Program-made: the position numbers and the translations under genes | Assembly (NCBI RefSeq): GCF_011397635.1 | Contig: NC_064770.1 | Coordinates: 31,954,598-32,018,597, forward strand | DNA from: Epinephelus fuscoguttatus | Lineage: Eukaryota; Chordata; Actinopteri; Perciformes; Serranidae | Length of the DNA stretch: 64,000 bases | Direction of reading: 5' to 3' | The notes under the pieces: generated by a model | What the model was told of the DNA's origin: nothing | Seen by the model: only the letters and a program-made list of their open reading frames with translations | Database searches by the model: none | Shown here: in pieces, positions 12,201 through 61,900 of the stretch | How positions within the stretch are numbered: position 1 is the stretch's first letter | Layout of the letters: the number at the start of each line of letters is the position of its first letter

Positions 12201-15200
12201 TTTAACATTATTGCTGATATCGCTGTACCAACTCACGGTGGCAGAACGCCCCTCCCACCCCTACATTAACACTGTTAGCTCTGTCAGCACTGTTGCCATT
12301 GTTTTGGAAACCTTTTGAATGTACTTTACACATTATAGCTTGTGCGTTTCATTAGTATAAAAACTGAAGTGTACAAATTACAATTTATGCCATTATTTCT
12401 TGGCTGGGAGAAGCAATTTCATTTGTCGCACACGATGTATTGCTGCTCCCGCGCTTTATTCCCACACCAAACAAATAAGCAACGTTTCGCCTCACGTAGG
12501 AGGCTTCATCAGGCTTACAGAGTAAAGGGCAGTCCCTCTTTTTATAGCATGTTCTCCAATAAGAGTGAGGCTATCTGGAGACCTACAAAATACATATAGG
12601 AATAATATTATTTCTCAATCAATCACAGATGCATTGTATCATGTTTTTCACAGATTCAATTAATACACTTATGAAAAACCATTTATAAAAAGAAAAAATA
12701 TATACATATGTATTATTTACAAAAATGGTCTAATATCAAAATCCAAATTCATCCCATGGGGTTGGAGCATCTTTAATTTATGGATCCAGAATATTTCCCT
12801 TTGTTGTAGTAGTCTGGTCCGATCCCCTTCGTGGATATTCTAATCTTTCAGTACCAATGTACCTCAGCATAGAGATACTATGGCTCATTTGTTTAAAATG
12901 TGCTGCTACTGGGTTTCTCATATCTCCTGTCCGGATATCACTTCTGTGTTCACTTATTCTAGTTTTAAGCGCTCTTGTCGTCATACCAACATAGGCTAGG
13001 GAACATGAGCATTTAATCATGTACACCACATGTGTTGTTTTACATGTAATCGTGCCCCTGATCTTAAACTTTTGTCCAGTAGTAGGATGGTAGAAAGAGT
13101 CACATTTATTGGTGAAGTTACATTGTGCACAGGCTCCACATTCATCTGATTTTATCACCATCGATCTGATGTTAGGTGCTCATTTGAAAACAACAGTAGG
13201 GGGTTCTTTGAAAGAGTCTTTCAAAAGGGGGTCACTCTCAATAATGTGCCAGTGACGGCGAATGATATTTTTAAATTCATGCCCCATCGTTGAATATGTT
13301 AAAAAACATTTTGGTCCTTTTTTCGGTTCAAGACATTCCTTTTTTTTTTTGTTTTTTTTTGTTTTTTTAAAAAGATGTGTTTTTGGACATTTTAGCCTTT
13401 AATTGATAGGACAGACAAGTGTGAAAGGGGGAGAGAGAGAGGGAGTGACATGCAGCAAAGGGCCACAGGCTGGAGTCGAACCCAGGCCGCTGCGGCAACA
13501 GCCTTGTACATGGGGCGCCTGCTCTATCCACTAAGCCACCGACGCCCCAACGGTTCAAGACATTCCTCCTGTGTTTTATCTTCAAATCTCTCGGCTGCAT
13601 CATCAATCCAATCTTGGGAATATCCCTTATTTTGGAAACGTTTTATCATCACCTCCTTTTGTTTCTGATATAGCTCATTTGAGCCACAAATACGTTTTAA
13701 CCTACTGAATTGACTAATAGGTAAGCTCTTCTTGAGTGCCAGAGGGTGACAACTATTACCCCGCAACAATGTGTTGAGGTCTATGGGTTTTCTGTATAGA
13801 TCTGTGACAAGTTTCCTCTCCTGTTTCATGACAGTTACATCCAAAAAGTTTACTTCATTTTCATTCATACACATAGTGAATTTGAGATGTTCATTGGCCT
13901 CATTTAGGAGGTTCAGACATTGTATCATTTCACCTTTGTCACCCTCATAGATAAGAAAAATATCATCTAAAAATCCTGATTTCTTAAGTTTTCCCTTTGA
14001 TGTCAGCACCGATTGAAATAAGTTGATTCGGAGGATGTGCATTCTTTATATTTGTTTCACTAGAAGCAATTTCATTGCCTGATATCAGACAGAGCTGTCA
14101 ACTCGTTACACTCATTCCCATCAATCAGTCAACTCAAACTCAGTAGAGTCTGGACCAGCTGATGTGTGCCCACCCATCAGGCAAACAGCCATTTAAATAT
14201 ATATGAGAGTGTGCTCACGTCCTCCTTTGTGGCCTGCCCATCTGCCTGATAGTGCACCCACCTCATTAGCTACCCTCACTGTTGCCATTGTTAGCACTGT
14301 TTGCACTGTTAGCACTGTTAGCTACTAGCTGCCAGCTCAGCCACCTCTGCATTGAGAGCTTTGGGTTTGTTACCTTTGGACAGAGCCAGGCTAGCTGTTT
14401 CCCCCTGTTTCCAGTTTTACGTGCTAAGCTAAGCTAACCTGCTGCTAGCTGTAGCTTTGACAGACAGATATGAAAGTGGTATCAGTCTTCTGACCTCACT
14501 CTTAGCCAGAAAGCGAATAAGGGTATTTCCCAAAATGCAGAAGTATTCCTTTGAGTGTAAATGTTTAGACAGTGATGATGATGCCTCTAAACTCACAGAC
14601 CTCTTAAACTACTGAAAGTATGAAAGCATAAAGTTATTGAGGACCATTCACCAGATGCTCAACCAATTTCTCACCACACTTTAGTCAGAAACAGGTCACT
14701 GCTACAAGTTTAGGTCATGGATGAATAATCAAAGGGGCCCAGCAGTCACTGGGGTTCAACTGGTCAGGCTGCCTCTAATCCACAGCCTGTGTTTGAAGTG
14801 TTATTAACCTTTCTCTTTGTAAAAGTCACATGGGCTCAGTCAGATTGCCCTGATCATGTTTAGCCACCTCGGCTCAATACAAACATATTGACATATATTA
14901 GAATATAACACAAATTCAGTGTGTCATAGTATTTTGTATCTGAGTAGAGGAGCTTTAGAGAGGAGACACACAGCCTCTCTTTGTCTCCAGAGTGATAGAA
15001 GCTCTTTGAAGTCATGGTTGACCTGCCAGATGTGGTTGAAAAATATGAAGAAAGAAAAAAGAATACAGAGGGTGTTTTTTTTTTTTTTGCTGTTAGGTGG
15101 GAGGGGAGCTTTCATCTGCGCCCAGGAGCCCAGATCGTCTCATAATCTGTCTGTGGTTTAAGTGATATTGAACATTTATTCAACAGCTGCGTGTGTGTTT

Positions 15201-21586: not shown

Positions 21587-22373
21587 TCACAAAAAACATG
21601 TGGTCATGAAGGGATGGACACGCTCAGCAACAATACTCAGGTAGGCTGTGGTGTTTAAACCATGCTCAGTTGGTACTAAGAACATCTCCCCCACACCATT
21701 ACACCACCAGCAGCAGCCTGAACCGTTGATACAAGGCAGGATGGATCCATGATGCCAAATTCTGAGCCTACCATCTGAATGTGGCAGCAGAAATCCAGAC
21801 TCATCAGACCAGGCAACGTTTTTCCAATCTTCTATTGTCCAGTTTTGGTGAGCCTGTGTGAACTGTAGCCTCAGTTTCCTGTTGTTAGCTGACAGGAGTG
21901 GCACCTGGTGTGGTCTTCTGCTGCTGTAGCCCATCTGCTTCAAGGTTGGACAAGGTGTTGTTGCTTCAGAGATGGTCTTCTGCAGACCTTGGTTGGAACC
22001 AGTGGTTATTTGACTTCCTGTTGCCTTTCTATCATCTTGAACCAGTCTGGCCATTCTCCTCTGACCTCTGGCATCAACAAGGCATTTTGGCTCACTGGAT
22101 ATTTTCTCATTTTGGGACCATCCTCTGTAAACCCTAGAAATGGTTGTGTGTGAAAATCCCAGTAAATACTCAGTCCAGCCCGTCTGGCACCAACAACCGT
22201 GCCACGTTCAAAGTCACTTAAATCATCTTTCTTCCTCATTCTGATGCTCAGTTTGAACTTCAGCAGCTTGTCTTGACCATGTCTACATGCCTAAATACAC
22301 TGAGTTGCTGCCACGTGATTGACTTATTGCTTTGAACAAGTGTACCTAATAAAGTGGCCGGTGAGTGTATCCC
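21587..22373 (-). pseudogene. Broken Tc1-family transposase with one terminal repeat
   Basis: Minus-strand frames show the N-terminal helix-turn-helix (LSDFERGTVVGARRAGLSI, 22006-22239) and, after a frameshift, the DDE part (21587-22054) with WSDESGF holding the first catalytic aspartate. The frame stops before the second aspartate region, so the 3' half is missing. A Tc1-type end, the complement of CACTCACCGGCCACTTTATT, lies at about 22350-22370, next to TA. The other terminal repeat is not present, which fits a truncated, inactive copy between syngr3 and gfer. Confidence 0.85.
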
Positions 22374-24958: not shown

Positions 24959-26743
24959 TCAGTCACAGGAGCCATCTTTCCATCCATCTTTCCACCTCTC
25001 ATCCACACGGGAGCAGTCAAACTCAGGCTTGCCCAGCCGGACGTTGACGTCATTGTGGATACGACAGAGCCACTGAGAAAGAGCGTGGCGACTCCTGGTG
25101 TCTGGCTGATTGGTTTTCAATCTGCAGAGAGGAAACAGTGCATTTAGAAATGGCTTCCTTTTGTCTAATGGCATTTTTAAATGTGATAACTGCAGATCTG
25201 TTAGCTTAGATGCTACAAGACCTGATATGTGACTGTCTAAGCACTGAGGTCTGACCTGCCCCTGAGGTCCTCTGCACATTCCTCACACGGGAAGAACTTG
25301 GAGAAAAGGTTGATGAACTGCCCCATCTCTTGCTGCTGGGTCGCAGATGGACGATCGGGGTAATACGCCGCCATAGTGTGCAGGAAGGACCAGGTGTTAC
25401 GCCCCAGCTCTTGCCGGTCCAGCGGGCACTGTGGGTCTTGTTGTGGCTCTGGCTCTGCAGCTTGGGTCTCCTGGTGAGTCATACAAGCACACATAGCGGA
25501 GTCAATCAGCTGGTATTTTAAAAGGGAACAGTCGACCAACTGCATTATGGTTAATGTTGTGGTTACACATGCACTGCTCATATCCTGTCCTGAAAAGACT
25601 GTTGGTTTCTTGAAGATCAGGATCAAGTTACTTAATTTATATGAAGTCATCTGCCTCTCAGGCTTCTCTTCTGTGGTGCCATCTTCCAGTTGATTTTAGA
25701 CTTTCCTCTTTAATAAAGCTTATAGTTAGGGCTGGCTCAGGCCTGCCTTGAACCAGCCCCTAGTTAGGCTGATATAGGCCTTGTCTGCTGGGAGACTTCC
25801 TGTGATATACTAAGCTCCTTCTCTCTTCATTTGCAAACATTCATGTCCCATTAATGCATGTTAATAACTCTGCTTCTTCCCCTTCCTTCACCTTTGTGCT
25901 CCGTTGTCTCGCAGGTTCCCTCGGGTCGCAGTGGGGCCTGGATCATGGTCATGGTCGTGCTGCTGCTGTGGTCCTGCCTGATGCCTACTACTACAACTAT
26001 TGTTATTAATCATACTTCTGCTATTACTACACGTGATTATTACTGTCACATACATATACAAATATATATTTATATGTATTCTGTGTATCATTTTGTCATT
26101 TGGATTACTGTAATTTTATTATGTTGATCTGTTCTGCACACATGACAGTTACTGCACGTCTTTCCGTCCTTGAAGAGGGACTCCTGGATTCTGTCTTCAA
26201 CTTTTAACTTTCAGACATTAAAGTGTAAATTTTTAAAATCTAATAACTAATTTATGATGAAGGGAGGGTCAGGCAAGGAAAAAATATCTAGCGTTAAAAT
26301 AGATGTGTGCATCTGGCATGACAGGGTGAAACCCAAGTTAACAAGCATGAAACATTGCGTCATGATGACTTTACAAACTCCACAGAAGCACGAGGGAGGA
26401 CAAAACTCTAGCACATTAATGAAATATATATATTAGTGTACAAATTATTATCTAGTCCAGCCAAACTTTCCGATAGTTAGAGTAATATTTCTACAGATCC
26501 TCCGTGACCTCTTGTCACCTGTACAGCAGCTGTCGTCTGTTTCTTCTGCACCTTCATCCAGGATTTAAAGTCCGTACACGCTCTGCACGGCTTCTTCTTC
26601 ACGTCCCCGACCTGCTCCTGCTCTTTACCGGAGCTTTCCTCCGCTGGTTTACCGGCCACCGCAAACGGGAAACCTTCAAACCCGGGCGGGCTGGAGGCTG
26701 ATGATCCTCTCGGTGCTGTGGGCGCAGCCATGTTCGCTTCCAA
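24959..26743 (-). CDS. gfer: Gfer (Erv1/ALR), FAD-linked sulfhydryl oxidase, three exons
   Basis: Minus-strand exons 26519-26743, 25256-25470 and 24959-25121 join in frame to give 200 residues (human 205). The enzyme oxidises Mia40 in the mitochondrial intermembrane space and passes electrons to cytochrome c. The N-terminal shuttle motif CRAC (C53, C56) precedes DFKSWM. The FAD-binding Erv1/ALR domain spans about residues 90-198, with the active-site pair CEEC (C137, C140), HTMAAYYPD, and the structural cysteines of WLC (C166) and FDC (C183). The C-terminus ends [14 protein letters not shown], as in the family. The first ATG (MEANMAAP) was chosen; the second Met at codon 5 is an alternative. 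It is head to head with drg2. Confidence 0.95.
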
Positions 26744-51480: not shown

Positions 51481-52964
51481 GACAGATGTGCAGATATCTC
51501 CCTTTAAGTCAATTCATTGATAAAAATCTGTGGCAGCCTCGTAAATGGAAAGTTGCTGTAAATTAATAACTGCAGTTTGCAGGAGAGCTTGACTTATTAA
51601 ATGTTAATTTTTAATCCTTTATTTAATTTAATTACCCACATACAGTACATTGCCAGTTTGAAGTCCTATGTTGTATTTTCTTGCATCAAACATGCCCATA
51701 TGTACTTTTGGATTGTTCATACTGTTAAAAACTTCTGCGGACATTATAGCAGGCATCACTCTCAGCTGTGGTCCATGCCTCTCTCATTGGTGTGTGTGTT
51801 TTGGCTCTGCGTGGCTTCGCCTCTCAGACACAGTTTAGCAACAGCTCAGCCAGCCTGCATTATTCATACAGGAGCGAGCCGGCAGATAGAGTTACCCCGA
51901 GGCAGTATAGCTGCTGCTTTAAGGTGCCCTTTGCAACTGTATTATAGGGATACACACTGATGCATATGCACACACACACAGACATACAATACATATGCTC
52001 ATATGTGCATACACATGAGCTGAGGGTAACGATGAGGCCTCAAGTCGAGGCGAACAAGGATGCATGAAGCGGCAGTAACCAGAGAGAGATGCAGAAGGTT
52101 GCAGGAGGTCACAAAGGCAAGCTGACGTGGATGTGGGAGGATACAACTTGCATACACACTCACTCTCAGACAAAGAGGAGGACACCCCTGAAGGCCGAGA
52201 CTCACACGGACGCACGCACATCGACTATCCTTGTTGGGGGGGACGTCCTGCCAAAGTTGGTGCGGCGGCCAAGATGAGGATTCACTGCTGGACTCACAGG
52301 ACGCACTAACAATGGGAGACACACAAAGGACTACACAGACCCTGTCACTGGGATATCAGGGTCTTTTATTCACCGTGTGACCCTGGGAAGTTACTTACAA
52401 GCCTGTTAAGAGGAACAAGGACTGAAATGTGCAAGTGTTCTTGCTATGCAGGCTGGACTTCAGTGGGAAAACTCCAGAGGCAATAAGTGGGTAAAACTGA
52501 GAGAGACTGTAACCAGTGAGATTAATTCTTCTCACAGGTAACATTTTAAATTCAGTAAGCATCTGCCTCTTCTTATTTAACACTCTTAAAGAGGTTTCCG
52601 TCTCTTTTTACTCACACAGAGACAACAGCTCTTTTGCTGAGGCTTGAAGACCTACTGTAATGCGAGCGAGCACTGATGGCTGAGATTCCGACTCCATTAC
52701 TAGATCGTGTTTTGAAGGACTGGGGTTTGTGTTTGTCTCTGTGTGCATTATAGAACAACTGACTCAGGACAGAGTGTGCCACTGTGTGTGCTTCTGGGGC
52801 GTTACATGGACGGATCAGATGGAGGAAAAAGGAGAGAAGACATGAAAAGCATTGGGACAGAGAGGATGTTGCTACTATTTAGACTCAACATTGACCTGCT
52901 TTAGCACATTTTGGGATCTCGTTCTTCCTATTCTTGTTTAAAATGATTTGAGCAAGAAGACATC

Positions 52965-55900
52965 ATGCCACCTAAAAAAGGTGACGCAAAATCAGCTGCC
53001 AAGAAAGGCAAGTCAGAGGAGCCAAAGAAGGGAGGAAAGGATGATAAGAAGGGAGGGAAAGATGACAAGAAAGGGGGAAAGAAGGCAGAGGAGCCACCGG
53101 CTAAGGGGAAAGGGAAGGATGATGGAAAGAAGGGAAAGGGAAAGAAGCTTGCCAGCGAGTCAGAGGAAGGGTCAGAGGAAGAAGAAGAGGAGATGAAGAC
53201 TGAGGAAGATGAGGAAAGTGAGGAGGAGGTAGTTGTCAAGAAGGATAAAGGGAAAGGGAAAGCAGCTCTAAAAGGTGCATCCAAGGCCATGGCTATGAAG
53301 GGATTTAAGCCTGCTAAACCACCTCCGTCTGATGATGATGAGGAGGAGGATAGGAAGCCTCAGATGAAGAAAGGGATGGGTGCAGTAAATCTGAAAAAGA
53401 TGAGTGATGTCAACATCAGAGGAGCCTCCAAGGCCATGATGGGCTTTGCTGCAGAGGGACAGAAAAGGGGCACTGCTGCAGCAAAAACACAGAAGACACC
53501 AGATGTCAAGTCTCACCTCAAAGGAGCCTCCAAAGCCCTCTCAGGCCTCGCAGGGAAGTCCACTCCTTTTACCTTGCCCTCTAAACAGCCAGCAGAGAAA
53601 GCGAAACCAAAGAGAAACCTCAAAAGCACCTCTCGTCTTTTCCTACGACTCTCCAAGAAAAAGAAACCCCCTTCTGGTGGTAAACCGTTACTGGGAACCA
53701 GCAAGCTTTTAGCTGGGTTTGGGGGTAAATCATCCACTGACAAAAAGCCAGGTCTGTCTGGCTTCAGCTTGTTTAATAAAAAGGAGGCTCCAAAAGAAAC
53801 CACACCACCTAAAAAGACAATAAATCTATCCGGTTTAGGGGGCAAGGGGAAAATGGCAACAGAGGCAAAGGGACTGGGAGGGAAGTTTAAAGGCATGTTT
53901 GGGAAAAAGAAAGCAGGATCAGATTTTAAGAGTAAAAGCTGGATGTTAGGAAGGATAGCTGCAGCATCTAACTGGCTGACAGGGAGGTTCCTGACTTCTA
54001 AGGGCCAAGGTCGCCTGGGGGCACGAGCAGGAGGTAGGGGACAAAAGAGTCTGTCATTTGCTAACAGGAACGCTAGAGGGAGAGAGACTCATTATTACAA
54101 TGAGGCCTATGAGTATGACGACGATGAGTATGGATATGATGAAGATTACCACAGCAGGGGGAGACCTAGAGGCTACATGAGACAAGCCTATGACCCCTAT
54201 GACCCTTACGGAGAAGACCTGGATTACTACGATGATGACGAGTGGGAAGATGAATATGGTTACTACGATGATGAGGGCAACTTTTATTATGATGATGAGT
54301 TTTACTATGAGGATGACGTGGATTACTACGGTTACCCTTATGGCTATTATGAGGATGAGTATGAAGATTACTACGGCGATGAAGGGGTAGAGTATTTCTA
54401 TGGTGAAGATGGAATGCTGTATGCAGTGGAGCCAGAGCCATATGGGTACTATGGTAGTGCCATGGATGGTTACTATGACCCATATGACCCTGAGCCATAT
54501 GGAGATTACTTTGACTACAATATGGGTTATAACTATGGGAGTCACCCGTATAGCGTGATGAATGGTGGTTATGATGTTGCTCCAGGCCTTTATAATGACC
54601 CAATGCTGGGATATACAGACCCTGCTGCTGCTTATAACCCCTATCAGCAATCTTTCTATATGGACCCTGGGCAGGATCCAGGCAATATAGGACAGCTATA
54701 TGGACAGGAGCAGCTGTCTTACCCTCTTCCTGAGCCATTTTCAGCAGAGCAGTTCAGGGTCCCCAGGCCCCAGGTCAAGCTATTTGGAAAAGATAGACTA
54801 GAGGTGGAAACCCTGCCGCCACCTCCTCCTACTCCTCTTTATTCTCAGCCAGCTTCCCCCATGTTCCCCCTTCCTTCTCCAGCTCTTGCCCTCAACAATC
54901 TGGAAATGATGTCCGATATAAGTTATGAGCAGCCTCTTCCTACATACCCTCCTGCACAGCCCCCTTACCCCGCTGCCATGGACCAACAACAAATCCCCAT
55001 GCTTCCTAGACAAGCCCCCTCGCCACTACAATTTGCACCCCAAATGTACCAACCAACCCTCCCCCAGGACCCACAAATGTTTCAGATGGGGCAAATGCCA
55101 CCAATGGTTGCACAGATACAGCCACCGATGCCCCCGCTGATGCCTTCACCACTACATTCACCAATGGCCTCACCCAGGCCAGTGCGACGAATGACTCCCC
55201 TTCCATCGCCACAGCTGTCACTTAGGCCAGGATCAGTTAGGGCGATGCCACCTCCTTCACCCCGCTACTCACCACATCACATGGACTTTCAAACAGGCAT
55301 CCAGTCAGATCCACATTTCTCCCCTCGCTTACAAAGGAGAGGACTCCCTCATCGGGCCTCAGTGGCAGGCCAGATACAGACTTCCCAAAGGCGGAGGCCC
55401 CCCAGCCCACCTCCTTCCCCATCATTCCAGAGGAGAGGGATGTCAGTTAGAGCTCAGCCATCCTTGTCAAGAGGAAGGGGAAGAGCTGGTTTACGCAGAG
55501 CTCCATCAACAGTCCGACCCCAATCCCCCCTTTCAAGCCCTCTACCTTCACCCCGGGGATCACTGAGGAGGAGAGCAAGCCCACCACCTTCCCCAAGACT
55601 CTCTTTCAGACAGCAGCCCCCTCCTGATGCTGTTCCTCTGCCACCTACCAGACCGCATATGTTCAAAGGTAGAAAACAAACATCCAAGATGAGGCGTTCC
55701 CCATCTCCTCCCCTCCCGTCCCCACAAAGACGTAGCCCGCCTCTACCAGAGAGATCTCAGTCTCCCCCGCAAACCTTCCGGCCCACCTCTCCCCATCGTC
55801 CTCCTTCTCCTTCCCCATCAAGAATGACCAGTCGCCCCCTTCCAACCCGGTCCTCTACTCGTAGGCTGAGGGGTGGTGTTGGTGGTCGAGCTCATGTGCC

Positions 55901-58900
55901 CATGGGGGCCGTGAAACCCTCTCCAGCTAATCCCTACTTACAGAGACGCAGTAGACATGGACCCCCTGTCACTCAGCATGTAGCCCCATTCAGGTCGTCT
56001 ATCCATAGTGGCCCAGCCCCTCCCTCAGGACAGATTGGGGGTGTAGCTGGAACACCCATGTTAGCCAGGGCAGGCTCCCGCCCTGCAGGATTAAGGGAGT
56101 CAAAACGAATTGGTACTAACCAAGGAGGCTTCCACAGACCTGTAGGTAGGGGACAGCCACTAGTTCGTATGCCCAGAAACCAGCCCTCTCTTCAGTCTAG
56201 GCAGTCATTCAGAGGACCTCCTCCAGTGCCTCCTGTCTCTCCCCAGCCGTCTTTGAAACAGAGTGGCCCTCTATCTCCCCAGCCATCAGTGCGTAGGCTA
56301 CAGAGTAGACCTCCATCTCCACTACCACTGCAACGTCCATCTCCTCTGCCCTCGCGTTCAGCCTCTCCCATGCACCATATGTCTCGCCCACAGTCCCCCT
56401 TTCCCCACAGGGCTATGAGTCCCCAGAATCTAGGGCCATCATCTTTTCAACCTCCATTACGTCAACCTGGTCTTCCTCCTGGTACTCTCCAATCATCTCA
56501 GGGTATCACCCAGTATGACTACACAATGATGGAGCCAGGACCCTCCCCAATGCTTACAAATGCTTTACCAAACCATCAGGTTGTAGGTGCTCCTTTTCCT
56601 CCTTCTCCTCTTCCTTCCTCCATCCCATACTCCACCACAGTTTCTCCTTTACAGAGACCCTCATCTCCCCAACCACAGTATGAAGTCTACCCCCAAAACC
56701 TCCCTCAAACTGTACCCCTATCACCTTATCTAGGGCATGCACTCCAGAATCCATATCTGCAGAATGCCAGTTACACCACACCTTCACAGACAAGCCCTTC
56801 CCCCATACCTGGTGGGGAGGGGGCAATATCAGCAGATGTACAGGTGAGCCAGGAGGGTAGCCCATATGCCACTCTTGGTCTATCCAATGCTTTGATGCAG
56901 AACTCCCGCCTGCGTAACGCCTCCTACACGTCTCCTCTACAACGCAATGCCAACGTCTATACAAATGTCCTCTCACCCCCACAGGCAGCAGCCCTTCCTG
57001 CCCCCTCTTTACCCTCCTCCCCACACTTGTCTGCTGCTATGCTTAACTCCCAGCTACGTAATGCTTCCTTTGCCTCACCCCTTCAGCGACACCTCTCCCC
57101 CATGTCTCCTGCCTCTCCCGCCCCTCCTCCCACCACACCTCAACAAGGGACTATCAGAGGTACCTCCTCATTTCTCTCTGGTGGATTGCGGACTGCCCAA
57201 ATTCAGGGATCCATGTTAAGGCTTCCAAGTGGCGCTTTGACAATGTCCCGGAGCCCTGTTGAGTCTCCAGTTGCCACTGATGTTGGAGGTGGGAGACTGT
57301 CACCCTCTATGCTATCCAATGCCCTGCAGAACCCAAGCCTACGACAGGCCACCTATCGACTTCCTGATGGCTCACTGATCACCAGAACTGAACCTGCTGA
57401 AGCTGCACCAAGTCCATCACCCCTCTCGTCCTCTATGCTGTCCTCTGCCCTGCTCAATCCCAGTTTGAGACAGGCGACATATCGTTTGCCTGATGGCACT
57501 CTAGTAACCAGGGCAGAACCTACACCTGCACCCTCTCCTTCCTCACCTATGCTTTCCTCTGCATTGTTGAACCCCAGTTTACGTAAAGCTACATATAGGC
57601 TGCCAGATGGGACTTTGGTCACAAGAAATGAGCCTGAGCCCATCGCCCCTTCATCTTCTATGCTCTCCTCTGCTCTTCTCAATGCTAATGTTCGTAAGGC
57701 CTCTTATCGATTACCAGATGGTTCATTTCAAACACATCCGGTAGAGGAGCCACAGAATCCTGAGAGTACTGTATCATCACCGGGGCTATCTAGTGCCCTG
57801 ATGAATGCAAACCTGCGTATGGCAAAGTTTCAGCTCCCAGGTGGATCATCATTGTTTTCACAGAACCAAGCTTCCACCTCTGCTCCCTCCGGTCCTAACC
57901 TTTCTAATGCAATGTTAAAGACCAACCTTAGAGGTGCCTCCTACAAACTTCCAAACACATCACTATTCAGGCAGCCTGGTTCTGCGGAAACCACTGAGTC
58001 ACGCTCCCTTGACCTTTCCAATGCTCTTCGCAACCAGAACCTCCGATCTGCCACCTACCGTTTGCCTGATGGAACACTGATGAACCGCCCTCAGCCCACT
58101 CCTGCACCTCGAACACTTGATCTATCCAATGCATTATCAAAGAACCCAAACCTTCGTGGGGCAAATTACCGTCTCCCTGAGGGTAATATCATGACACGGC
58201 TTGGTGCCCCTAGCACCCCAGAACCTCGCACACTTAACCTCTCTGGTGCCCTGCAGAACCCTAACCTCCGAGGGGCCTCTTTCCGTCTACCTTCATCATA
58301 TGCTGTTGTGTCACCCCAGGTCCAGGGATCTGGCCCTGGGCAGCACTGGGCACAGGGCCCCGGAGCTGAAGGCTTGGGACTGCAGCAAGATGTGGATGTA
58401 TGGGGTGCAGAGAGGGTACTACCTCACGGGACAGTGCAGAACCTCAATAAGTGGTCGATGTATAGAGACGGGGAACTGCTGGACCCCCACAGCCTGATGG
58501 GACAGGGACAAGTGGGACATGAACCAGGGGAGTGGAATCTCAGCAGGGAGGGAGAACCACAGGGGCACTGGTATGACAAGGTAAAAGTTTTGAAACATGA
58601 CTCACAATACAGTTAGACGCAATAGCTAATGTTTGGCACCATACTATAATTGTTTTATGCCATGGTGTGGTTAAATACCAAGCGGCAACTGCAGAAAAAA
58701 ATAAAGCCATATGTATTTTTGTATATCCACCATCTCAACCAAATATGTCATTTTGCTATTCAACTTGCTACTTCAGGCCTCAGCTGACAGTACACATTTG
58801 TTCAGGAAAATCTTATATTGACATTGATTTGGGTACAATGACATGGCTGCACGGCTAGCTATTTTTGTTGTTAAACATACCATCAGATTATATTTACCAT

Positions 58901-61900
58901 TTGTTTATCGTGTTTACTGTTATTCACTTTGAATCTTACTAACATAACATTAGCTTTTTGGCTAATTACTGAGCTGAAGGGCTCTATGAGCTGAGTGCAC
59001 TAGAAATATCTCCAGTTGCCAAGTCGTATCTAAAGCCCATTTTCCACTGGACAAAAAAACTCACTAACAGCAACTAAAATCTGGCTTTTGACTTTGGTGG
59101 GAAAGGTTACCATCAGCATTCATTCCCGGAATAAATGACTCTGCAGTAGTCACAAATATTTGGCTCCAGCAACGATGTGATGGAAATATGACACCCAGGT
59201 GGACATACTTATTTTTACCCCCTTTATGACATGCCATTACAAACTCTGGCTGTCACTGTCCAAGCAGCGCTCGAAAATTGTCCTTCGGCACCAGCACTGT
59301 CGCCTCACAGCAAGAGGGTTCCTGGTCGATCCCGGGTGTGGGAGCCCCTCTGTGCGGAGTTTGTATGTTTTCCCCGTGTCAGCGTGGGTTTTCTCCGGGT
59401 ACTCTGGCTTCCCCCCACAGTCCAAAGACATGCAGGTTAACTAGTGACTCTAAATTGTCCGTAGGTGTTAATGTGAGTGTGAATGGTTGTCTGTCTCTAT
59501 GTGTCAGCCCTGTGATAGTCTGGTGACCTGTCCAGGGTGTACCCTGCCTCTCGCCTAATGTCAGCTGGGATAGGCTCCAGCCACCCCGCAACCCTCAAGA
59601 GGATGAAGCAGTTAGAAGACGGATGGATGGATAGACGGCACCAAGTTTGAAAAAGAGACTGATTAAGTCTCTTGTCTTACTGCTGATTAAGTAACACATA
59701 TAAAGATGAAGTAACCACCAAAACATTTTAGACAAACAACTTTAGATTTTGATTGCAAAAAATATAAATAAATGGTGTTAGTTTTTTTTCTATGGCAGGT
59801 GACCATGGTGTAAATGCCCTTCAAGGTGTCCATTAGTGGCTTAGTCCATTACTGGCTTAATTAATTCCTGATAATGGACACCTCTTAGGCATCATCCCTT
59901 ACATGTGGTGTAATCTTGCAGTTGGAAGTGTAATGCTGGGTGAAAGCCGGGCACTCTAATGGATTTTCAGTAGGAGGGAGTAATCAGGGAGATGGTAGCT
60001 CATTTGGAAAACGTTTTTGTAATCAGAATATACAATTCCACTGGGCTAATAAGATAAAATGTCTAAAACACATTTCCTTGGTGAGAGATGACTCTGGATA
60101 CAATGAAGATTGGGATAATCCAAAAGAGAGAGAACTGATATTTCCACATGAGTGTGTGAATGTATTAGTGCATGAACACAATGCAAAGAGCTTTGTACAT
60201 GCATCATGTCCTCATTTCTGATTCCTGTATTTTAGATGTACTCAATCAGAAGCCTGACCACGATGGCTCACCGGGAGCAACGAGAGGAAGACGGGGTGGA
60301 AGATATGACACAGTTAGAGTAAGTAAAGAAAATCACTCACACCTGAGTTAACACAAAGTGTAGTCAGATTTAAGGCAATCCATCACTCTAAAGAATGTAT
60401 TCCATTTGGTTAATCATGATTTAAGGTAATAAACTGCAGCATAGGCGTTTCTAGCCCATTTTTGGGGGTGCTGAAGCACCCCCTAATCCCAGCACCCCTA
60501 AAATTTGAGAGATTTTTTTTTTTTTTTTTATTGTAAATCCTTTTTAACAAGCTAGAAAAGTGTCAAAACCATACAGTACTTGGTTGCAACGTAATATTTT
60601 AACAACAAAAATACAGCAGCACCCCCGTAATTGCGTTAAAATGTACAAAACAGTGAAATTTATCTTGCCTGGCCAGGCAGCTCTCTGGGTGCTCAGCACT
60701 CCTCAATCTCTGATCCTAGATTCACCCCTGAACTGCAGTCATGTTTGCCTTTTTCAGTGTATGGAAAATGAGAAAATGCTTCAGCATATACAGTGTGATC
60801 AGTGGGCAGTCATCGTTATAAAGCGTCAAAGACAGTTGTAGTGGTTGGCTATGCCTAAAGATTAGCACAATACTTAGTGAAAAAAGGCCAGATTTGAATT
60901 AAGCACAGTGGACGCTGAGTTTATCAAATACGGGATTGATTTTAAGATTATTTTATTTGTTTATAAAGCCATACATGGGCTGAACTTCTCTGCCCCTACT
61001 CTGACTCCATACCTCTTAGATCCTTCGAACAAGGTCTTTTAACTGTCCCGCGATCGAGGCTGGTGGGTAAGGGAGATCGTGCCTTTGTGGTGGCAGCAGA
61101 AGTCCTTTGTCATCCTTAAATATCTTTGTCTTACTGCTTCTGTCCAGGGAGATGCATGAAGGGGCTGTCCTGCTGAACCTGCGGAAAAGATTTGAGAGGG
61201 AGATTATTTATGCAAGTATCTGAGCAGCACACATGTCCAACATACAAACACCTGCATACATAGACTCATTATACTATACCTGAAAATGTCTTGAACTTAT
61301 GTATAAATCAGAAGTCAGATTAGTTCCTTTTGAGTTTGTGTTGATTTTACAAATCTATCTCTTTATCTATTTCTTTTTTAAAATTTCCATTTCTTTCTTT
61401 TCTTATTGTTTTTCAGTCATACATAGGCAGCATTCTGGTGTCTGTGAACCCCTACAAGATGTACAACATCTATGGGACAGACGTGGTGTTGCTGTACAAG
61501 GGTCATGCTCTGGGAGAGAACCCTCCGTGAGTCATGTTCACGCTCAAATGTGGGGACAGTGAAATGAAAACAAACAGAATGCTGTTGTCAGTATTATATT
61601 ATAGCTGTTTAATATTGTATTTTAAAAACAAAACATAATAGATCCTTACCGTGTTCTGTTTGAAGCTAGAAAGGAAGCCGACATGAGTAAAGGAAGGAAT
61701 GGTTCAGGTAAATAATTAAGGCAGGGCAGGGAAAAAAGATGGTTAGAAATACAGAGGATAAGGGTAGAAAAAAGGAGAAGACATACAGTTTGAGTTCATT
61801 GCTTTTATATATGTTTAAATATCTCAGCTTGATGCAGCTCCTCTCTCTTCTTCAGGCATTTGTTTGCCATAGCAAACGCTGCTTATTCCAAATTGATGGA

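Follow-up and report, generated by a model that had tools for sequence, protein, structure and literature searches.

The N-terminal extension of a Myo15a-like gene contains an array of 12 clear copies of a conserved motif, each 24–28 residues long and all lying within residues 1252–1782, and the same array is present in both Myo15 genes of the genome. The gene lies in the window, the whole 64,000-nucleotide stretch of Epinephelus fuscoguttatus DNA that was analysed, and the consensus of the motif is SPxLSxALxNxxLRxASYxLPDG. We read the array as a possible beads-on-a-string docking array, the ligand of which would most likely be monomeric actin bound in the manner of WH2 and VASP GAB motifs, and we give this reading as a whole a probability of roughly 0.36. 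A conserved, countable array of motifs offers a concrete candidate for what such an extension may bind.

The genome searched comprises 1.05 Gb in 26 contigs, and the window sits on contig C19. One open frame of 1889 codons occupies positions 52947–58616 of the window, and within it the coding part of exon 2 (52965..58580, forward strand) runs from an ATG at 52965 to a consensus donor, gacaag/gtaaaa, at 58580/58581, the gt beginning at 58581. This confirms the length of 1872 residues given for the extension by the first-pass annotation. Myosin motor exons follow downstream, among them a myosin-XV-type exon at 61408..61527 on the same strand, and the best PDB matches of the motor-exon query are myosin-XV chains. 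We put together a motor piece of 191 residues from five exons by eye; its identity to the PDB myosin-XV chain, which we take to be that of mouse, is 77.0%. Because motor exons of the myosin-15 type lie 3' of the extension and show this identity, the gene is Myo15a-like, as had been proposed, and the motor that follows the extension places it in myosin class XV. The blocks of the extension are, in order, a basic N-terminal region, a Tyr/Asp-rich region, a Pro/Ser-rich region, the repeat array, and a juxta-motor segment.

In a profile HMM trained on 11 of the units, leave-one-out scores ranged from 27.9 to 59.7 bits, and the twelfth (unit 1), which was outside the training set, scored 12.4 bits. 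When residues 1241–1800 were shuffled 2000 times, the same 11-unit HMM matched 1566 of the shuffled sequences and gave none more than 9.3 bits, and the tandem array that had been noticed from the sequence is thus confirmed. All units are on the forward strand and were delimited by the HMM and the alignment. The first three are of type A, with a TTP ending: unit 1 (core leucine L1256, 56718..56801), unit 2 (L1306, 56868..56954, with a one-residue insertion) and unit 3 (L1355, 57015..57098). Unit 4 (L1450, 57300..57383) is of type B, with LPDG, and it is followed by unit 5 (L1492, 57426..57509), unit 6 (L1530, 57540..57623), unit 7 (L1567, 57651..57734), unit 8 (L1608, 57774..57857), unit 9 (L1646, 57888..57971), unit 10 (L1684, 58002..58085), unit 11 (L1720, 58110..58196, with a one-residue insertion) and unit 12 (L1759, 58227..58310), the last clear unit. 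Upstream of unit 1, a degenerate stretch (SPMLTNALPNHQV, residues 1194–1206, 56544..56582, forward strand) scores 2.1 bits, which is weak, within the range of the shuffles and not significant alone.

The array had been placed at 56726..58310, with 12–13 units of 34–40 residues running to the junction with the motor. The place is right in the frame that starts at 52965, but position 56726 itself is out of frame. Twelve units are clear, and successive cores lie 50, 49 and 95 residues apart at the start of the array and 36–42 apart from then on. The last unit ends at residue 1782, 90 residues before the end of the exon, so the array stops short of the motor rather than reaching it.

A second Myo15 gene and the age of the array

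When the extension was searched against its own genome, it returned, besides the query itself, seven matches on contig C3 (27328210–27337835), at a locus whose motor belongs to the same class. Nineteen stretches of this locus were picked out by the HMM, 15 reaching at least 16.7 bits and four scoring 0.3–10.6 bits. When splice sites are placed by eye, two of the stretches merge into a single unit and another, degenerate unit can be added, so that the array amounts to about 19 units spread over six exons. Three C3 units, used as queries against the genome with E up to 10, had 14 matches among the best candidates, all of them in the two Myo15 genes. In an alignment of 28 units from both genes, L0 and A3 are conserved in 28 of 28, A12 and P17 in 27 and N6 in 26, although the alignment omits three C3 units and its register was set on the conserved columns, which favours their figures. 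Two C3 introns interrupt a unit at the same point in phase 0 (NLAK^AL and DLSK^AL); the C19 array is contained in one exon. The intron-split part of the C3 array at C3:27335364–27336559, set beside the single exon of C19, points to intron gain or loss between the genes.

The unit tree, which carries no support values, clusters C19 units 1–3 with C3 units 1–4 and 7, sets C3 units 8, 16 and 18 beside C19 units 4–12, and gives C3 units 9–12, 14 and 15 a group of their own. Since each gene has both types of unit, in matching order, the array is probably older than the split between them. Motor identities are 77.5% between C19 and C3, 77.0% between C19 and mouse, and 69.6% between C3 and mouse, and a quartet with PDB myosin-XV and myosin-X chains prefers C19 and C3 as sisters (bp 0.72) with no topology rejected. 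The split may correspond to the teleost genome duplication; the quartet also leaves room for the second gene being MYO15B rather than a teleost-duplication twin, in which case the array would be older still.

The divergence among the units speaks to their age as well. For the nine units with core leucines 1450–1759 (36 pairs), the 20-codon core has a mean pS of 0.734 and a mean pN of 0.280, and in the eight codons after the core of the same units pS is 0.772 and pN is 0.549; pS is saturated and codon counts are small, so that no pN/pS ratio is precise. In the adjacent units at 1492 and 1530, pN is 0.09 at a pS of 0.76. Tandem Repeats Finder reported no period above 12 bases between 56500 and 58600, and so no DNA repeat of unit length. 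With synonymous sites near saturation and no DNA tandem remaining, the duplications are old, and with low protein change of the core at saturated pS, the motif has been retained by selection. The core is kept more than the linkers at saturated synonymous divergence, which bears out the view that the array is not simple low complexity.

Comparison with known domain families

The array had been described as undescribed-looking, and a search for a known domain family in Pfam, NCBIfam and PDB gave no credible match, in agreement with that description. In Pfam the whole extension matched a single bacterial T6SS family at E 0.03, which we regard as chance; on the array alone the same family reached E 0.00025 and 20.4 bits, under its cut-off of 23.4. 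Three C3 pieces matched only two unrelated Pfam families (E 0.05–0.07), and NCBIfam gave only four unrelated families far under their cut-offs. Against PDB, phmmer with the extension found only one antibody chain (E 0.42); the matches of a 25-unit profile were two nitric oxide synthase sequences (11 residues, E 0.63), with no actin-binding chain among them; phmmer with one unit gave no match. We found no description of the array in a literature search whose coverage leaves out most subscription journals and bioRxiv preprints. A faint resemblance to pentapeptide repeats had also been suggested. The period of that family is five residues, and the suggestion must be given up given an array spacing of at least 36 residues and the absence of a Pfam match to the family.

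The L..A..N..LR.A spacing of the units resembles that of the WH2-type actin-binding motifs. The layout of WH2, according to the available text of PMC7407642, is a helix followed by LKK(T/V). The units may share with WH2 (PF02205) the register L..(I/A)..(G/N)..L[KR], with a helix and then an LK or LR motif; in contrast to WH2, the units have N for G, A for V/T and mostly no second basic residue of LKKT, and their conserved YxLP(DG) tail has no counterpart in WH2 motifs. With E up to 10, Pfam found no WH2 in the extension, in the six of the 12 single units that were tested, or in three C3 pieces; N-WASP and WIP controls were matched and a VASP control was missed too. Nor are the Myo15 loci among the 20 WH2 places of the genome.

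We compared the register of the units with 17 of these 20 places, the other three having longer spacing. Scored in the predicted register, each of the 17 motifs lies above the 96.5th percentile of the 60203 windows taken as background, and all but one beat their own shuffles at 0.05, though the motifs are homologous and thus do not amount to 17 independent tests. With the register left free, p<0.05 was reached by six of the 17, of which one matched in a different register, and by five of the 17 when a longer profile was used. An hhalign comparison of WH2 with the unit profile aligned 18 columns ungapped in the predicted register, with a score of 4.97 that lies under the permuted mean of 5.75 and is equalled or exceeded by 152 of 200 column-permuted controls. 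When, reciprocally, a profile of five WH2 motifs was run over the extension, its best score was 2.9, away from any in-register unit and lower than the best that shuffles gave on average (3.8, sd 2.4). Membership in the WH2 family thus fails in Pfam, in hhalign and in the reciprocal scan.

Among controls in a test with a 12-unit profile, good in-register scores came from VASP and WAVE2; N-WASP W2, WASP, WIP and thymosin beta-4 fell short of 0.05, and N-WASP W1 reached 0.05 only off register. The actin-binding motif of VASP is the best single fit, ungapped, with none of 1000 shuffles as good over all registers (0.001 with the longer profile) and none of 3000 in an earlier test against the 12-unit profile, and the VASP chain in PDB 2pbd has matching letters in the core. 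Searching the genome for the VASP motif returned no match, an empty result that carries no weight with the tool used. The Ena/VASP GAB of chain V, GLAAAIAGAKLRKVS, can be set against unit 6, MLSSALLNPSLRKAT, as an ungapped match over the helix and LR motif; chain V differs in having one copy only and no YxLPDG tail, and a fit to one sequence is weak for membership. In the units themselves, the hydrophobic moment at 100 degrees of a seven-residue helix segment is 0.460, compared with 0.299 for permuted columns, the fraction as high being 0.019. These likenesses are suggestive, not proof, that the units may work like a GAB/WH2 motif without passing as a WH2 member.

The calponin repeat, with the spacing LQx(4)KxAS, was also considered. 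This spacing resembles that of C3-type units; the units, on the other hand, have no GTN core and no Pfam match to calponin. With the longer profile, a single one of three calponin repeats reached 0.010; with the shorter, none did. The likeness is not supported.

Possible ligands of the array

From a helix moment above that of permuted columns and from the varying spacing we infer that the binding motifs are separate from one another and strung along a flexible chain. In each bead a short amphipathic helix (LSxALxN) would lead into an extended stretch, LRxASYxLP, that ends in a DG turn, and flexible linkers of variable sequence would join one bead to the next. A single myosin would in this way gain a dozen docking sites, or about 19 in the second gene, just ahead of its motor. 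If monomeric actin were the ligand, which we propose tentatively from the likeness of the motifs, the extension would collect actin subunits and pass them on at stereocilia tips.

A partner other than actin is at least as likely as actin. The array might provide multivalent docking for a stereocilia-tip or mechanotransduction protein, for the motor itself (autoinhibition) or for an adaptor, with the WH2/GAB likeness coincidental, and we consider this to have a little less than an even chance. A conserved and multivalent motif suits such a role, as do the lack of a match between the units and any known actin-binding family, the negative reciprocal WH2 scan, and a three-unit genome search whose best candidates included Myo15 genes only; in the available text of Fang et al. 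2015 (PMC4592939), the binding partners of the extension are 'of great interest' and none is named. However, the sequence indicates no particular partner, and the VASP-type spacing match would then have to be chance.

It is improbable that the units fold together as a repeat domain, such as a solenoid or a tandem helix-hairpin. The strict L0, A3, N6, A12 and P17 columns, and a DG turn after a possible beta strand, would suit a small fold, but the distance between cores varies between 36 and 95 residues and conservation covers only some 24 residues of each unit. Very improbable, in our view, is a proline-rich disordered spacer or entropic spring in which the repeats are relics of expansion with no specific ligand. 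The array is itself 12.9% Pro and 15.2% Ser, and the mammalian extension, in the accessible part of PMC4592939, is predicted to be disordered, contains 16.8% proline and is likened to entropic springs; a spacer, however, would have no need to preserve L, A and P columns in units with saturated synonymous sites. An artefact of assembly or gene model can be dismissed, as nothing was found in its favour in the one open frame of 1889 codons and a diverged second gene, bearing the same array with its own exon structure, refutes it.

The first-pass annotation, which knew of no such array in the human extension, suggested a module that may be fish-specific or lost in mammals. The mammalian extension is described as proline-rich and 'containing no predicted domains' in the portion of Gong et al. 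2022 (PMC9299544) that was available. The extension of mammalian MYO15A isoform 1 (133 kDa, exon 2) shares with the one studied here its gene class, its place before the motor, its single large exon and its proline-rich composition (PMC11754657, PMC4592939, PMC9299544), and differs, as far as the available text of these papers goes, in being described with no predicted domains and with no mention of an array of units. Mouse isoform 1 is required for maintenance of the short stereocilia, and the available text of PMC4592939 also poses the question of what binds to it. The motor of mouse nucleates actin, and the effect of the extension on nucleation is called an important future question in the sections available of PMC11754657. 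Variants in the extension are linked to deafness, and how the extension helps to keep stereocilia intact is treated as an open question in the accessible parts of PMC4592939, PMC11754657, PMC10982375 and PMC9299544.

Actin binding by the array would tie nucleation by the motor to the role of the extension in stereocilia. In its fullest form, which we think rather unlikely, the proposal would be that 12 to 19 WH2/GAB-like motifs form an actin-monomer reservoir feeding a nucleating motor, an ancestral arrangement that was reduced or altered in mammals. If this were true, the long form of fish Myo15 would combine motor, nucleator and polymerase at stereocilia tips. The units can be removed or point-mutated singly, which makes the array a tractable system.

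Other features of the extension and the window

The basic N-terminal region contains four motifs of the form L/I-[KR]-[GS]-[AT]-S, at residues 102, 151, 185 and 219 (53268..53700, forward strand); all four lie in residues 1–340, none of 5000 shuffles reached that number, and hydrophobic residues come next in each case. By eye they look like the LRGAS core of the main array, and the C3 gene has similar motifs (LKNMSRMFM and LKSTSRLFL). A hybrid or degenerate unit near residue 1397 (57144..57251, forward strand), recognized by pattern and by eye, joins the N-terminal-type IRGTSSFLSGG with the main-array tail RLPSGAL, hinting at a relation between the two sets of motifs.

The juxta-motor segment, ERVLPHGTVQNL[NS]KWSMYR (58326..58580, forward strand), is strongly alike in the C3 paralogue, where a match with 48% identity over residues 1734–1882 takes in the last units and ten codons beyond the donor; judged by eye, the segment is possibly a diverged last unit. 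Elsewhere in the window, all on the reverse strand, are a frame at 25240–25695 that we presume to resemble a GFER/ALR sulfhydryl oxidase, pieces at 12781–14045 that we take to be like a Penelope-like retroelement with a GIY-YIG-type end, and, at 21590–22207, what is presumably a piece of a Tc1-like transposase.
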